This document shows positions 9,173 through 15,655 of a stretch of DNA of 64,000 nt, in pieces. How positions within the stretch are numbered: position 1 is the first letter of the stretch; every line of letters begins with the position of its first letter. The position numbers and the translations under genes are program-made. Source of the DNA: Ensifer adhaerens (GTDB taxonomy: Bacteria > Pseudomonadota > Alphaproteobacteria > Rhizobiales > Rhizobiaceae); NCBI RefSeq assembly GCF_020035535.1, contig NZ_CP083350.1, positions 1,994,501 through 2,058,500 on the forward strand, given 5' to 3'. The notes below the pieces were generated by a model. The model was not told the origin of the DNA. It made no database searches and saw only the letters and a list, made by a program, of their open reading frames with translations.

Positions 9173-10123
9173 ATGAAGCCCGCAAACCTCCGTATCGATG
9201 TGATAACGACTTTTATCGCAATCGTCGAAGCGGGAAGCATGCGTGAGGCGGGCAGAAGGCTCGGTGTATCCAAGTCGGTCGTAAGTCAACGCCTTAGTGC
9301 ACTCGAGGCCGCTCTGAATGTGAGTCTGCTCAGTCGCTCGACGCGCCAGCAAGCGCTGACAGACAGCGGCAAGTATTTTTTCGACCGTTGTCAGAAGATC
9401 GTCGAGGAGTTCCAGCTAGCAGCGGAGGAGGTGAGTGATCGCCAGGATGAGTTCTCGGGGACAATTCGCGTCGCGGCTCCGGTGAGTTTCGCTCAACTTC
9501 ACCTCACGGGCGTTTTCTCCAAATTCTTGCAGGACAATCCGCTCATCGACCTGCAGGTCGAATTTGATGACAAGATGCATGATCTGGTGGGTGACTCTTT
9601 CGACATGGCGATCCGGATCGGGAGACTGAAAAATTCGGCTCTCATCGTTCGACGTTTCGGTCTCAGCAATCGTGTGGTTGTGTGTTCGCCGCGGTACATC
9701 GAAGAAAACGGCAAGCCGGATACGATCGAAAGTCTAGAAAACCACTACGCTGTCAGCTACGCGAACATCACTCCACAGTCGGAATGGATCTTTCGTAGAG
9801 GCCAGGAGCTGAAGAGCGTCACGCCAAAAAGCCGGATGCGCGTGAATAGCGGCGATATCCAGTTGGCTGCGGTTAAAGACGGCATCGCAATTGCGGCGCT
9901 GCCGCTTTTCATTGTCCATAAGGCGATCGCAGCAGGCGAAATCGAGGTTGTGAATTTCGATTGGCAACTCGTGCCCGACGACCTTTGCATCATCTATCCC
10001 CAGAACCGGTTTTTGGCGCGCAAGGTTCGTGCCTTGTCAGCAGCAGTCATCGCCCATGTCGGGAACCCGCCATATTGGGAGAAATGCCTTAGTGCAGAAC
10101 AACAGGAGAATCTAAAATCATGA
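9173..10123 (+). CDS. LysR-type transcriptional regulator of the ring-cleavage operon
   Basis: A 316-residue LTTR: N-terminal winged HTH in residues 5-64 (VITTFIAIVEAGSMREAGRR, LGVSKSVVSQRLSALEAAL) and a C-terminal effector domain with the usual SGTIRVAAPVSFAQLHL start and DMAIRIG core of the CrgA-like LTTR branch. Unusually for a LysR gene it is not divergent: it reads the same way as its presumed targets, and its stop overlaps the dioxygenase start in ATGA. It is therefore probably co-transcribed and autoregulated. The inducer would be an aromatic or its metabolite (inference). Confidence 0.92.
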   Translation: MKPANLRIDVITTFIAIVEAGSMREAGRRLGVSKSVVSQRLSALEAALNVSLLSRSTRQQALTDSGKYFFDRCQKIVEEFQLAAEEVSDRQDEFSGTIRVAAPVSFAQLHLTGVFSKFLQDNPLIDLQVEFDDKMHDLVGDSFDMAIRIGRLKNSALIVRRFGLSNRVVVCSPRYIEENGKPDTIESLENHYAVSYANITPQSEWIFRRGQELKSVTPKSRMRVNSGDIQLAAVKDGIAIAALPLFIVHKAIAAGEIEVVNFDWQLVPDDLCIIYPQNRFLARKVRALSAAVIAHVGNPPYWEKCLSAEQQENLKS

Positions 10124-11286
10124 ACCAAATGATCATAAGCGGCGTCAACAGCCAGACATTCGTGTGCTCGAACTTAGGGCGGATCGAGCACTTCTATACG
10201 GTAGTGCTTGGACTTCGTGTGCTCAAGCGCACCGTCAGTCATCTCGATGGCCGACTCCCGGTGATTACGTTCGGGTTCAATAGCCACGCCGAAGAACTTC
10301 CTAGAACTCAGACGGTCACGTACCTCGAGTGGAACCCGATTTTCTACATGATGCCGAAGGAAGGCTTCACGGATCCCGCGCTGGTGGCGGATGCGGTTTC
10401 GAACCCGCGCGTTGGCGATGCAAAGGGGCGCTGGGGCGCCGGCACTAACCACCATCTCGCGCTTCATGTTCCAAACCGAAATGGTCTCCTGAAGTGGAAG
10501 CGGCGGCTCACCGACTTGGGCATCCATGTTACCGGTCCCTATAACCGCAACTACTTCCATGCGATCTATCTGCGGGATCCGGACGGAGCGATCATCGAAA
10601 TCGCCACTTCGGAACCGGGCTTCGGTCACGACGAAACCATTCTCGGCTCGGAATTCAAGCCTCAGCCGGAAGAGAATCTCGTTGGCGGACGTAGCGAACT
10701 GCACGTAGCTTCGGAAACTTGGCCGGCACCCGTGCCGCTCATCACCGACGATTACGCGCTTCGAGGTTTTCATCACATTACATCCATTTCCAGCAATGCC
10801 GAAAGGACTGAGAAGTTCTTCGTCGAGACTGTTGGATTGCGTCTCATCAAGAAGACGGACTACCTCGATGAAAAGGGTGGTACGCACTACTACTACGCTT
10901 GCGATGAAGATCTTTCACCCGGTTCGGTGATCACATTCTTTGGCTTGCCCAACTATGTGCCGGGCCGCTTGGGCACCGGGCTGTCGCACCACTTTACGCT
11001 GGAAGTCGAAAACGAACCGGCGCTCGCCGACCATCGTGAGCGCCTGCGGCGCGCGGGCGTGGACGTCTCCGGTATCCAGGATGCCATCTACAACAAAATC
11101 TTCCATTTCCGCGATCCGGACGGTCATATCTGTGCTGTTTCGACCCCCAGCAATTTTACGATCGATGAAGATCGTGAGGACTTGGGGCAATCACTCTGCC
11201 TGCCAGAGTCGCTGGAGCCCAACCGTGCAAAGATCGAACGGCACCTCGCTTTCCGTCCGGCGCCGACTCCGGTTCTGGAGGCTTGA
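10120..11286 (+). CDS. Two-domain VOC ring-cleaving dioxygenase with reversed metal-site order
   Basis: A 388-residue protein of two VOC modules of the MhqO/LinE/PcpA type. In PcpA the Fe(II) ligands are a His from the first strand of domain 1 plus a His and a Glu from domain 2. Here the first strand of domain 1 reads SGVNSQTFV (no His at 10-11), but domain 1 has NHHLALHV (H111/H112) and DGAIIEIATSEPGF (E160), while domain 2 starts RGFHHITSI (H218/H219) and has Ala339 where the Glu should be. So the only complete 2-His-1-Glu set is H219 + H112 + E160. It probably opens a hydroquinone-type ring; the next gene, a maleylacetate reductase, fits that. Starts in the LysR stop (ATGA). Confidence 0.85.
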   Translation: MNQMIISGVNSQTFVCSNLGRIEHFYTVVLGLRVLKRTVSHLDGRLPVITFGFNSHAEELPRTQTVTYLEWNPIFYMMPKEGFTDPALVADAVSNPRVGDAKGRWGAGTNHHLALHVPNRNGLLKWKRRLTDLGIHVTGPYNRNYFHAIYLRDPDGAIIEIATSEPGFGHDETILGSEFKPQPEENLVGGRSELHVASETWPAPVPLITDDYALRGFHHITSISSNAERTEKFFVETVGLRLIKKTDYLDEKGGTHYYYACDEDLSPGSVITFFGLPNYVPGRLGTGLSHHFTLEVENEPALADHRERLRRAGVDVSGIQDAIYNKIFHFRDPDGHICAVSTPSNFTIDEDREDLGQSLCLPESLEPNRAKIERHLAFRPAPTPVLEA

Positions 11287-11526: not shown

Positions 11527-12645
11527 ATGAGTGAGCTTAAATGCCTGCCACAAGAGTCCGTGATTTGGGGAAAAGCCATTATTGCGGAAGCGGTAACCCG
11601 GCTCTCCGGCCACGGCGTGAACCGACCGATTGTCTTCACAGCCGAACCGTTGGTGCCGCTCTATGAAAAACACATACAGCCTTTTCTGAAAGATGTCGCT
11701 GGGCTCACTACCGCTCTACCGGCACACGTGCCGGATTTTGCCGTCGAAGCCGCGCTGGACGCAGCAATCGCTGCAGGCGCCAAGTCGATCGTTGCGCTTG
11801 GTGGCGGCTCAGTTTTGGATGCCGCGAAGGCGGTTTCACACTTCCATCATCAGCGCACGGGTGAGTTCCTACCGATCGCAGCATTCCCGACTACTCTTTC
11901 GGGGTCCGAATTCTCCCACTACTTCGGTGTCACTGAAACGAGCGGTCCGCAGAAGTTCAAGCGAAGCTATGCGGTAAGCGAAACGACGCCGCGTGTCGTT
12001 GTGATCGATCCCGTTCTCGTCGAAGGTACGCCCCGCGCACTTCTTCTTTCGTCTGCTATCAAAGGCCTTGATCACGCAGTTGAAGGCATGCGCAAAGTCG
12101 AAAGTGATCACCCTCACGCGATCCTGGCGGCGAGCGGGGCAGAGCGGTTCCTGTCCGTATTGGAACGATGGCCGTCGGGTCTCGAGACCGTGGAGGGACT
12201 CCGATCGGGCAAAGTCGACCATGACGACCTGCTCCAACTGCAACTCGCCGCATGGCAGTGCTATTTCTATCCGGCCTCGGTCATCTACGGCTTGAGCCAT
12301 AGAATTGGGCACATTCTTGGCGGTACCTATGGTGTGCCGCATAGCATGACCTCGTGTATCACGCTGGCGCCTGTCATCCGGGCCTGCGCTGACTTCTATG
12401 GACGAAAGTTGACGGTATTCTCTCCTGAGAGCGGCACCATCTTAGCGGCCGAGGTTCTCGCCAACCGAATAGAGAATGTAGTTCGCAGGCTTGAGCTTCC
12501 AAACAGGATCGGTGCTTTCAATCTGTCACCTGAGGAGCTGCCAGCTGTCGCAGCGCTTCTTGAAAGCAATTATCCCAACGAAGTGGCAGACCTGGGTGAA
12601 AATGCTTCCGACAAACTGGCAACCCTACTTGGGAGCATCTGGTGA
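11527..12645 (+). CDS. Maleylacetate reductase-like iron-containing alcohol dehydrogenase
   Basis: A 372-residue Fe-ADH family protein starting MSELKCLPQESVIWG, with AAGAKSIVALGGGSVLDAAKA (cofactor GGGS motif), AFPTTLSGSEFSHYFGVTE and GLSHRIGHILGGTYGVPH. The short length and the SEFSHYFGVT region point to maleylacetate reductases (LinF, TfdF, HqoD-like), which reduce the 2,3-double bond of maleylacetate to 3-oxoadipate with NAD(P)H. The chosen ATG has AAGGA about 12 nt upstream; a longer frame from 11401 would run through the palindrome. It overlaps the amidase start by 4 bp. In context it would take the product of hydroquinone-type ring cleavage to the beta-ketoadipate route (inference). Confidence 0.87.
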   Translation: MSELKCLPQESVIWGKAIIAEAVTRLSGHGVNRPIVFTAEPLVPLYEKHIQPFLKDVAGLTTALPAHVPDFAVEAALDAAIAAGAKSIVALGGGSVLDAAKAVSHFHHQRTGEFLPIAAFPTTLSGSEFSHYFGVTETSGPQKFKRSYAVSETTPRVVVIDPVLVEGTPRALLLSSAIKGLDHAVEGMRKVESDHPHAILAASGAERFLSVLERWPSGLETVEGLRSGKVDHDDLLQLQLAAWQCYFYPASVIYGLSHRIGHILGGTYGVPHSMTSCITLAPVIRACADFYGRKLTVFSPESGTILAAEVLANRIENVVRRLELPNRIGAFNLSPEELPAVAALLESNYPNEVADLGENASDKLATLLGSIW

Positions 12646-14015
12646 AAGCTTCTCCGAATGGTATGTCGGCATCGCCCCTCGGTATTCGGGCGGCGCTCGA
12701 TATGTTGGGTGATGGCGAGATCACGCCCGTGGATCTGGTGCGCAACGCAATTGACCGCGCACAGCTCGTGAATCCGCGCGTTAACGCCTTCGCTGCCGTC
12801 GCTGGCGAGCGAGCACTCCGCGATGCGGTGGACAGCGGAGTACGATGGGATGAGGACCGCGCGCGCCCCCTCGAAGGCATTCCGATTGCGGTCAAGGACC
12901 TATTCGATACCGACGATATGGAGGCCTCTTATGGTTCTGCCGCATACAAGAATCATTTTCCGAGCGCGGATGCAGAGCTCGTCCGTCAGCTTCGGCACCA
13001 AGGCGCGATAATCGTCGGAAAAACGACCACGCACGAGTTTGCGTGGGGTGTCACTACGGCCAGCACGCATTTCGGCGATACCTGCAATCCGGTCGACGAG
13101 GCCCGCATTCCAGGCGGGTCCAGTGGCGGCGCCGCCGCTGCCATCGCTTCGGGTGTTGTAGCCGCTGGGCTCGGAACTGACACCGGTGGTTCTGTACGGA
13201 TTCCGGCGGCGCTGTGTGGCACAGTTGGCTACAAGCCGACGTTTGGAAGGCTTTCGACTTCCGGCATCTTTCCCTTCTCACCCTCGCTCGATCACGCGGG
13301 TATCCTAGGCGCAACTGTTGATGACGTGATGCTGCTCGCCAGTGCGCTTGGAATCGATAGCCCTGCAACGCCGCAAGGACGCAAAACCAAGCTTGGAGTA
13401 CTGAGGTCGATTCCGCCAGTTCCACTGGACGCGGCGGTGACGGAGGCCTTCCATGCTGGGGTCATTTCGATTGCGAATGCCTACGACACCGTCGAGATCG
13501 ATCATGCCGGGACCTTTGAAGGGGTATTCGCCGCGTTCGCTGGAATTGTGCTCACTGAAGGCAGCGTGGGCCACTACATGCGCAACAGCAAGGAGAAGAT
13601 CGAGGCGGATTACGAGCCCGAGACGCGCGAGCGGATCGAACGCGCGCGAAACGTTTGCATCAGTGACTACTTTGACCACCAAGACTTCCGACGGTCGTTC
13701 ACGAAACGACTAGACGACTTCATGGACAAGATCGATTTTCTTGTGCTTCCAACTACTCCGTGCGTCGCTCCCCTCCGCGGGCAGGAATCCGTGCAGATCG
13801 GAAGCTGGAGCGGAACAGTGCGCGAAGCGCTGATGACTTATGCGGCGCCATTCAACATGGCTGGATTTCCGGCCATATCCATTCCGCTGGCGGTCCCTCC
13901 CGGTGCCTTGCCATGTGGCTTGCAGATCGTAGGACGCCGCGGGCAAGATGCTGCGCTTCTTCGTTTAGCCGCAGACATTTCGAGTGTTATGGTCGCTGTT
14001 GGCAAGAAGATTTAG
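12642..14015 (+). CDS. Amidase signature family hydrolase
   Basis: A 457-residue amidase starting at GTG inside the reductase stop (GTGA). The catalytic triad of the AS family is present: Lys85 in IPIAVKDLF, the cis-Ser in GGSSGG (158-163), and nucleophile Ser184 in TDTGGSVRIPA. These enzymes hydrolyse amides to acid and ammonia. Sharing an operon with ring cleavage and maleylacetate reductase suggests release of an aromatic acid from an amide, or hydrolysis of an amide intermediate; the substrate is not visible. Cytoplasmic: no signal peptide. Confidence 0.92.
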   Translation: MKASPNGMSASPLGIRAALDMLGDGEITPVDLVRNAIDRAQLVNPRVNAFAAVAGERALRDAVDSGVRWDEDRARPLEGIPIAVKDLFDTDDMEASYGSAAYKNHFPSADAELVRQLRHQGAIIVGKTTTHEFAWGVTTASTHFGDTCNPVDEARIPGGSSGGAAAAIASGVVAAGLGTDTGGSVRIPAALCGTVGYKPTFGRLSTSGIFPFSPSLDHAGILGATVDDVMLLASALGIDSPATPQGRKTKLGVLRSIPPVPLDAAVTEAFHAGVISIANAYDTVEIDHAGTFEGVFAAFAGIVLTEGSVGHYMRNSKEKIEADYEPETRERIERARNVCISDYFDHQDFRRSFTKRLDDFMDKIDFLVLPTTPCVAPLRGQESVQIGSWSGTVREALMTYAAPFNMAGFPAISIPLAVPPGALPCGLQIVGRRGQDAALLRLAADISSVMVAVGKKI

Positions 14016-14299: not shown

Positions 14300-15655
14300 C
14301 TAGCAGCAGATCGGATTGCCCAGCGTGCCGAACCGTGGCTTCAAGATGCCACCAGTAGCTTTTCGGATACGAAGCGCCGAATGCCCTGCATTGTCCACTA
14401 TCGTGGGGACATCAAATGCCATCAGCTTGCCGTGACGCTTAATCATACGACCGTCGACAATGACCGTATCGACATTCGCTGGTGTCGCCGCCTGAACTAC
14501 TGCGGTTTCGATGTTGGTCACGGGCGCCATGTTGAGATCCTTGGAGCGGAGAAGGATTATGTCGGCTCGTTTTCCAGGCGTTATAGAGCCCGTGATATCT
14601 CCTAGCCCCAATGCAACCGCACCATTGATGGTGGCCATCTTTATGACGTCACAGAACCCGAGCGGGTTCGTCGCCGAGAAGCCCAAATTCCAGGTGAACC
14701 GCATATTTTCAAACATGTTCGGCGGAGAAACTGAGGTCGCATCCGACGAGAGCGAAATCAGAACATTCGCGTCCTTCGCCGCAAGAAGAGCGCGCCGAGG
14801 ATCCCCGGGCATACCGAATTTCATTTCTGAGTGCGTCGCAAAACTCAGTGGGGTATTTGTTCTGGCTAGGGCCGCGCGGTCCCTGTCTGTCGCCGCCAAG
14901 TAGTGGCAGAAGAGAAAGTTCGGGCCCAGATAGCCTCGGCTTTCGTAGTCCTCCGCGTCGTCGAGATTTGGCTCGTCCTGGCTGGCGTGGATACAGACCG
15001 GCAATCCCGTCTCAAGGATAGTCTCCATTTCCTTATGAAACACGTCAGCATTGCTCTGAACCATCGCCCTGAGGTTCACGCCAAGATGGACCAGTCCGTC
15101 AAACTGCGTGCGATCATCGAACCATTCGGATTTCACGCGAGGGAGATCGGTGAAATCGTTGACGACGTCGATCGGCAGTTGGTCAGGGGGACCGAGAGAA
15201 TATCGAGCTCTTAGCAAGGAATTCCTGTGCGCACGCAGCTCCGCGTCCACGTGCGCTGGCGATCGATTATTGTGAGACCAATTGTTGACCGTCGTGACGC
15301 CGTTATTTGCAAGCTCAGCAAGGCCGAGCATCACACTGTTGTAGAAGTCTTCGGCGCTGTAATGTTCGGCGGTCGCCCATTTCGCCTGGAAGTACCCAAA
15401 TCCGTCGTCGCAAATAAAGCTTCGGCCCAGTGAGCTCCACATGTGATAGTGGGTGTCGATTAGACCGGGCATGACGATCATGTCGGTGGCGTCGACGATC
15501 TCTGCAGAGTCACTACTGAGGGCGCTTCCCACGTCCACAATGGCTCCGTCACGTATCAAGACGTCGCCCAAGGGCAGCGTGCCGATGGTGGGGTCGACCG
15601 TGATGATTGCCCCGCCTTTGATGAGGTATTCTCCGCGCGCGCTGTCCCAAGCCAT
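14300..15655 (-). CDS. Amidohydrolase, cytosine deaminase/TrzN-like
   Basis: A 451-residue metal-dependent hydrolase of the amidohydrolase superfamily: HxH in GLIDTHYHMW (H69, H71), third ligand in VCIHASQ (H223), LFCHYLA (H251), THSEMKFG (H275) and the catalytic Asp in SSDATS (D305), ending with the small beta-sandwich (TPGKRADIILL). The pattern with CHYLA and THSEMKFG is that of the subtype III deaminase/dechlorinase group (AtzB/TrzN, S-adenosylhomocysteine and guanine deaminase relatives). It would hydrolyse C-N bonds of a heterocycle. ATG follows AAGGGGG by 8 nt. A 13-bp-arm inverted repeat lies 67 bp upstream and is its likely operator; it is a single-gene unit with its own terminator. 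Confidence 0.88.
   Translation of the reverse strand: MAWDSARGEYLIKGGAIITVDPTIGTLPLGDVLIRDGAIVDVGSALSSDSAEIVDATDMIVMPGLIDTHYHMWSSLGRSFICDDGFGYFQAKWATAEHYSAEDFYNSVMLGLAELANNGVTTVNNWSHNNRSPAHVDAELRAHRNSLLRARYSLGPPDQLPIDVVNDFTDLPRVKSEWFDDRTQFDGLVHLGVNLRAMVQSNADVFHKEMETILETGLPVCIHASQDEPNLDDAEDYESRGYLGPNFLFCHYLAATDRDRAALARTNTPLSFATHSEMKFGMPGDPRRALLAAKDANVLISLSSDATSVSPPNMFENMRFTWNLGFSATNPLGFCDVIKMATINGAVALGLGDITGSITPGKRADIILLRSKDLNMAPVTNIETAVVQAATPANVDTVIVDGRMIKRHGKLMAFDVPTIVDNAGHSALRIRKATGGILKPRFGTLGNPICC

Follow-up and report, generated by a model that had tools for sequence, protein, structure and literature searches.

In a 64,000-nucleotide stretch of Ensifer adhaerens DNA (assembly GCF_020035535.1, contig NZ_CP083350.1, positions 1,994,501 to 2,058,500; "the window"), the plus-strand gene at 10120..11286 encodes a 388-amino-acid tandem VOC protein, a candidate ring-cleaving dioxygenase, whose only complete ligand set lies in the active-site cup opposite to the one used by its characterized relatives. 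Canonical enzymes (PcpA, LinE, MnpC and MhqO; structures 4huz, 3oaj and 1zsw) combine a His of module 1 with a His and a Glu of module 4 (site A), whereas the window protein combines a His of module 3 with a His and a Glu of module 2 (site B). We consider it probable that this is a site-B-only ring-cleaving dioxygenase that arose from a two-site ancestor without reversal of its domain order and that replaces MnpC in the mnp (meta-nitrophenol/aminohydroquinone) route.

The protein contains two PF00903 (glyoxalase/VOC) stretches, and its predicted model has two tandem VOC domains in a single chain with the overall fold of 3oaj and 4huz. Setting boundaries by our own judgement, we divided it into module 1 (10120..10344, about residues 1-75; N10 and S11, a degenerate half of site A), module 2 (10417..10647, about 100-176; H111/H112, R143, Y150 and E160), module 3 (10735..10962, about 206-281; H218/H219 and T221) and module 4 (10963..11175, about 282-352; the other degenerate half of site A, which keeps H290/H291 and has A322, H329 and A339). 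Because single-domain VOC structures align with the predicted model across modules 1 and 4, modules 2 and 3 should, by exclusion, form the other cup.

An alignment that includes the PcpA chain 4huz places N10, S11, T13, H290, H291, A322, H329 and A339 in the site-A columns of PcpA H10, H11, T13, H226, H227, R259, Y266 and E276, and H218, H219, T221, H111, H112, R143, Y150 and E160, in the same order, at their site-B counterparts. We take H11, H227 and E276 to be the iron ligands of PcpA, consistent with the 4huz chain numbering and with the ligands of MhqO, and H10, T13, H226, R259 and Y266 to be its five further active-site residues. With S11 and A339 in site A and H219, H112 and E160 in site B, the complete set is therefore H219, H112 and E160. 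The preliminary description of this gene had singled out this triad as the only full one, and the residues it relied on (N10/S11, H111/H112, E160, H218/H219, H290/H291 and A339) are all present in the translation. Site B thus has a full His-His-Glu set together with its recognised second-sphere residues, and since N10/S11 and A339 stand where the canonical pattern has a strand-1 His in domain 1 and a Glu in domain 2, we do not assign the protein to the canonical PcpA/LinE/MhqO subfamily. Metal is very likely bound at site B, with H111, R143, Y150, H218 and T221 as the predicted second sphere. A literature search for PcpA ligand numbers found none; among the text portions consulted, one lists His11, His218 and Glu266 as the ligands in MhqO (3OAJ) (PMC12673573), and another assigns PcpA an aspartate along with two histidines (PMC3727088), in conflict with the Glu at 276.

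The site-B pattern is shared by a whole class of relatives. A homologue search returned 1451 proteins, with 120 among the matches listed; listed matches of at least 340 amino acids (shorter ones were left out) and the VOC genes of the retrieved loci were aligned with 16 of 120 canonical matches and three PDB chains to give 222 rows. Classes defined by the three ligands per site comprise 80 two-site, 27 site-A-only and 113 site-B-only proteins, counts that describe a sample centred on the window rather than natural frequencies and that include some proteins twice (P0094 equals L030 over the tree regions); L029 and P0044 fit no class and were left out of the residue table. Because three ligands per site set the classes, the other five residues serve as an independent check. 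All eight active-site counterparts are kept in site B of the site-B type (113/113), so the pattern is not a product of chance. Two-site proteins are complete in both cups (80/80), with Thr or Ser at the T13 position (74 and 6 in site A, 67 and 13 in site B), and the site-A type keeps its residues in site A in 27 of 27 proteins, but T13 in 26.

Site A of the site-B type has decayed unevenly. H11 is replaced in all 113 proteins, the E276 position is mostly Ala (89/113) and the R259 position is most often Ala, Thr, Leu or Ser, while Y266 is retained in 33, H10 in 20 and Thr13 in 75 of the 113. The disappearance of a ligand set from one of two sites could also mark a degenerate, non-catalytic paralogue with a regulatory or structural role; we find this highly improbable given the invariance of site B, the conserved catabolic neighbours and a second copy in the same genome, 87% identical, with the same reductase and amidase. 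Two points nonetheless tell against a working site-B enzyme with a simple relic beside it: the lost site still carries His290 in all 113 proteins and His291 in 111 of them, a degree of conservation that mere relic status would not account for, and no activity data were found for any site-B member. The His pair (10987-10992) may have a structural or other role. In the titles and abstract openings listed by searches of open-licence PMC papers, no site-B or two-site family member was found.

The preliminary description had read the triad as two halves that swapped order, with the linker joining what are normally the outer ends. A true swap, in which the domains of a canonical enzyme of the PcpA/MhqO type were circularly permuted, seems improbable to us, although the cross-similarity to canonical enzymes on which it would rest was observed. 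A phmmer search pairs window residues 215-335 with MhqO 7-124 and 101-173 with MhqO 207-279, and the permuted window protein outscores the in-order one against 15 of 16 canonical proteins. Among pairwise domain scores of 21 site-B, 21 two-site and 16 site-A proteins, hand-picked for spread, window-type and canonical proteins give higher in-order sums in only 5 of 336 comparisons (12 of 336 with the catalytic positions masked).

As the best reading, however, the swap gave way to the bridge formed by two-site relatives, to module profiles and to domain trees. Two-site proteins give higher in-order sums in 441 of 441 comparisons with the site-B type (440 masked) and in 336 of 336 with the canonical type (334 masked), and against them the window protein itself has a mean score of 682 in order versus 455 permuted (21/21). 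Profiles built from the two-site proteins prefer the corresponding position of the site-B type for module 1 (103/113), modules 2, 3 and 4 (113/113 each) and the C-terminal tail (112/113), and in 113 of 113 the linker resembles that of the two-site relatives rather than their tail, contrary to the notion that it joins outer ends. For the site-A type, modules 1, 2, 4 and the tail are placed alike in 27, 27, 26 and 27 of 27 proteins; the linker profile (1/27, with scores below zero) is uninformative there. The phmmer search that produced the crossed matches also gives an in-order match, with the tail, between window residues 272-377 and 1zsw 230-333. The best domain tree of the same 58 proteins as in the pairwise scores separates all N domains from all C domains (96, starred), as does the tree without catalytic columns (96, starred), and the split recurs in subsets (99, starred, for two-site plus site-B proteins; 90, unstarred, for two-site plus site-A proteins).

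Beyond the canonical cross-scores, some results favour reversal or leave room for it. The module 3 profile lies in the same place in only 9 of 27 canonical proteins and cannot decide, and approximately unbiased (AU) tests do not reject the reversed order with all three groups (p 0.231) or with the pairs (p 0.548 and 0.500), the reversed tree scoring slightly above the free tree in both pair tests. Because the AU tests fail to reject reversal, we regard a co-linear domain order without reversal, as the comparisons suggest, as well supported but not proven. Slow evolution of the modules in a working cup and fast evolution of those in a dead one would be expected to produce the cross-similarity to canonical enzymes.

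One two-site ancestor followed by two opposite losses would be the simplest history, and we think it likely. Such an ancestor would have carried His-His-Glu in both pseudo-symmetric cups; the window lineage would have lost site A (modules 1 and 4) and would work with site B (modules 2 and 3), and the canonical PcpA/MhqO/MnpC enzymes would have undergone the opposite loss. In the full-length tree, the window type and the canonical type form separate clades (100/100 each), and the site-B clade joins five two-site proteins (95/85); the data do not reject a tree that unites all two-site proteins (p 0.498), which sits less well with this history. A relic Glu is seen at site B in PcpA, MhqO and L090. 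The site-B protein P0073, from a metagenome-assembled genome of Solirubrobacteraceae, has a site-A Glu without the strand-1 His and may represent a halfway state.

The presumed intermediates are extant. Two-site tandem VOC proteins (P0098-P0120 and L032-L088; Chloroflexi, Ignavibacteria, Rubrobacter and others) are 40-46% identical to the window protein and co-linear with it, but unlike it have both sites complete. A phospholipase/carboxylesterase-type hydrolase lies near two-site genes in 40 of the 57 loci L032-L088; a maleylacetate-reductase-like gene was seen near them in 3. If the history is right, the family is a natural experiment in reciprocal active-site loss within one polypeptide, with Chloroflexi and others still two-site, and offers a testable case of a fused duplicate losing one of two equivalent sites in which both outcomes survive alongside the presumed intermediate. 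Maize monomeric glyoxalase I (5d7z) is likewise a tandem VOC protein with two similar sites, one functional and one cryptic, and a two-site yeast glyoxalase I appears in the title of one of the references (PMC5412262). These enzymes differ in catalyzing another reaction, and the portion of PMC5412262 consulted describes no sister lineages with opposite site losses.

The gene neighbourhood suggests a function. Downstream of the dioxygenase gene and on the same strand lie genes for a maleylacetate-reductase-type iron-containing alcohol dehydrogenase (11527..12645) and an amidase-signature amidase (12642..14015). The most likely reductase start, an ATG at 11527 chosen by homology (MSELK), lies 240 bp beyond the VOC stop, so the coupling proposed in the preliminary description holds as adjacency and not as translational coupling of dioxygenase and reductase; reductase and amidase genes share 4 bp, provided that the amidase starts at GTG 12642. 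Upstream, a LysR-type regulator gene (9173..10123, plus strand) overlaps the dioxygenase gene by 4 bp (10120-10123). The best solved relatives of the reductase include 9ph0 (deposited as 'MAR1') and the maleylacetate reductases 3w5s and 3hl0.

The preliminary description had not recognised the combination as a described aromatic pathway, and the idea of an unknown pathway was dropped when a search with the reductase led to the mnp cluster of Cupriavidus, which has the same set of reductase, amidase and ring-cleaving dioxygenase. The plasmid search returned 18 records, 13 with a site-B dioxygenase, 4 from Cupriavidus or Variovorax and one weak Diaphorobacter match. In the four Cupriavidus/Variovorax loci, the reductase and amidase genes are accompanied by wrbA, by genes for a canonical dioxygenase and a nitroreductase, and by a tryptophan-dioxygenase-like gene. 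The dioxygenases of these loci have all eight residues in site A (4/4) and none of the three ligands in site B, where the counterparts of H10, T13 and R259 remain, and the three included in a tree group with PcpA (100/99). In the portion of PMC5604080 consulted, the mnp cluster of Cupriavidus sp. CNP-8, described by comparison with C. pinatubonensis JMP134, encodes the nitroreductase MnpA, the aminohydroquinone dioxygenase MnpC, the amidase MnpE, the maleylacetate reductase MnpF and MnpR. We matched the loci to it through the genes present in C. pinatubonensis HN-2 (L098) and their order, not through the published sequences.

At 64% and 53% identity, respectively, the window reductase and amidase resemble the HN-2 counterparts of MnpF and MnpE, and many related loci hold a fuller cluster. 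Across 23 site-B loci in genome contigs, some of them short, the reductase is found in 19 and the amidase in 19 to 20 depending on the query, with both in 19. Relatives of MnpF occur in 19 (45-65% identity), of MnpE in 20 (35-57%), of MnpA in 14 (61-71%), of MnpR at 55% or more in 17 and of WrbA in 9 (76-82%). MnpC itself has no match in the window or the 23 loci (E-value 1e-10, 60% coverage), and a site-B enzyme is present instead; from these mnp-type neighbours and the lack of MnpC matches, we infer that the site-B enzyme stands in MnpC's place. Using Fe(II) and O2, it would most likely cleave the ring of aminohydroquinone or a related hydroquinone between C1 and C2; the amide formed by ring fission would then be hydrolysed by the amidase to maleylacetate, which the reductase would carry on to 3-oxoadipate. 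An aminohydroquinone-type substrate is, on balance, the better supported choice, because an amino-substituted ring would give an amide on fission and so explain the amidase; the product proposed for aminohydroquinone in the consulted part of PMC5604080, 6-amino-4-hydroxy-6-oxohexa-2,4-dienoic acid, is such an amide. We lean slightly towards the further view that, after reciprocal site losses, both survivors serve this same step, with MnpC in that role in Cupriavidus and Variovorax and its site-B counterpart in rhizobia and further alphaproteobacteria.

Site B might instead act on another para-dihydroxylated ring, such as hydroxyquinol, methylhydroquinone or a lignin or flavonoid fragment, with the amidase working elsewhere in the pathway; we judge this possible but rather unlikely. 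The published portions consulted report that purified MnpC itself degraded hydroquinone and chlorohydroquinone (PMC5604080) and that an MhqO-like gene of Agrobacterium sp. B1, which may or may not be of the site-B type, lies beside a maleylacetate reductase gene and was suggested to encode a hydroxyquinol dioxygenase (PMC12673573). The recurrence of quinone reductases (WrbA, and AzoR in 8/23 loci) and GST (14/23) also fits such a substrate, as does the absence of the nitroreductase from the window copy's surroundings; the joint occurrence of reductase and amidase and the role that an amide product gives the latter speak for aminohydroquinone. Less easily reconciled with an mnp-type route are the window's lack, over its 64 kb, of a WrbA match or a match to the nitroreductase MnpA (E-value 1e-10, 60% coverage), and the LysR protein, which is only 28% identical to that of the Cupriavidus cluster. 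Neither MnpA nor a close MnpR adjoins the window copy. MnpE, MnpF and MnpR were, moreover, named by BLAST, according to the same portion of PMC5604080.

The tryptophan-2,3-dioxygenase-like gene is kept in both rhizobial and Cupriavidus mnp-type clusters (L013 5622-6548, L018 11224-12546, L098 14659-15549), and we know of no role for it in the mnp pathway. A kynurenine-like route, with this gene and the amidase as a formamidase, was not adopted, as the gene occurs in only 7 of 23 site-B loci. A paracetamol-type route from amidase through aminophenol to hydroquinone was also considered, and the portion of PMC9420511 consulted offers nothing on this gene type. Three Bradyrhizobium loci (L009, L020 and L026) have a site-B dioxygenase and no reductase or amidase match within the retrieved flanks. 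The grouping of quinone reductases, nitroreductases and dioxygenases recalls Bacillus quinone-defence regulons as described in part of PMC6798810. The site-B type would add a dioxygenase to the nitrophenol/aminohydroquinone-related clusters of rhizobia and their relatives, and working ring-cleaving dioxygenases can go unnoticed when searches or annotation rely on the canonical ligands.

The site-B type is rare and patchy: at an E-value of 1e-100 it was found in 1 of 289 genomes sampled from the class, namely the one that holds the window, and in 3 of 247 from the family, again counting that genome. The window's genome also has at least three canonical site-A paralogues (L003, L005 and L007, among L001-L008 classified). 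Its second site-B dioxygenase gene, followed by reductase and amidase genes, lies at G000:C1:1378000-1397000 (L095 7304-12877), with relatives of MnpF (60%), MnpE (52%) and WrbA (39%) as neighbours. An amidohydrolase-family gene lies just upstream of this second copy, with a nitroreductase-family gene close by; the window copy is also near an amidohydrolase-family gene (14300..15655, minus strand). Flanking the second copy, an exact direct repeat (L095 1403-1702 and 13001-13300) at the starts of two LysR genes 11.6 kb apart resembles the trace of a recent duplication or a mobile segment.
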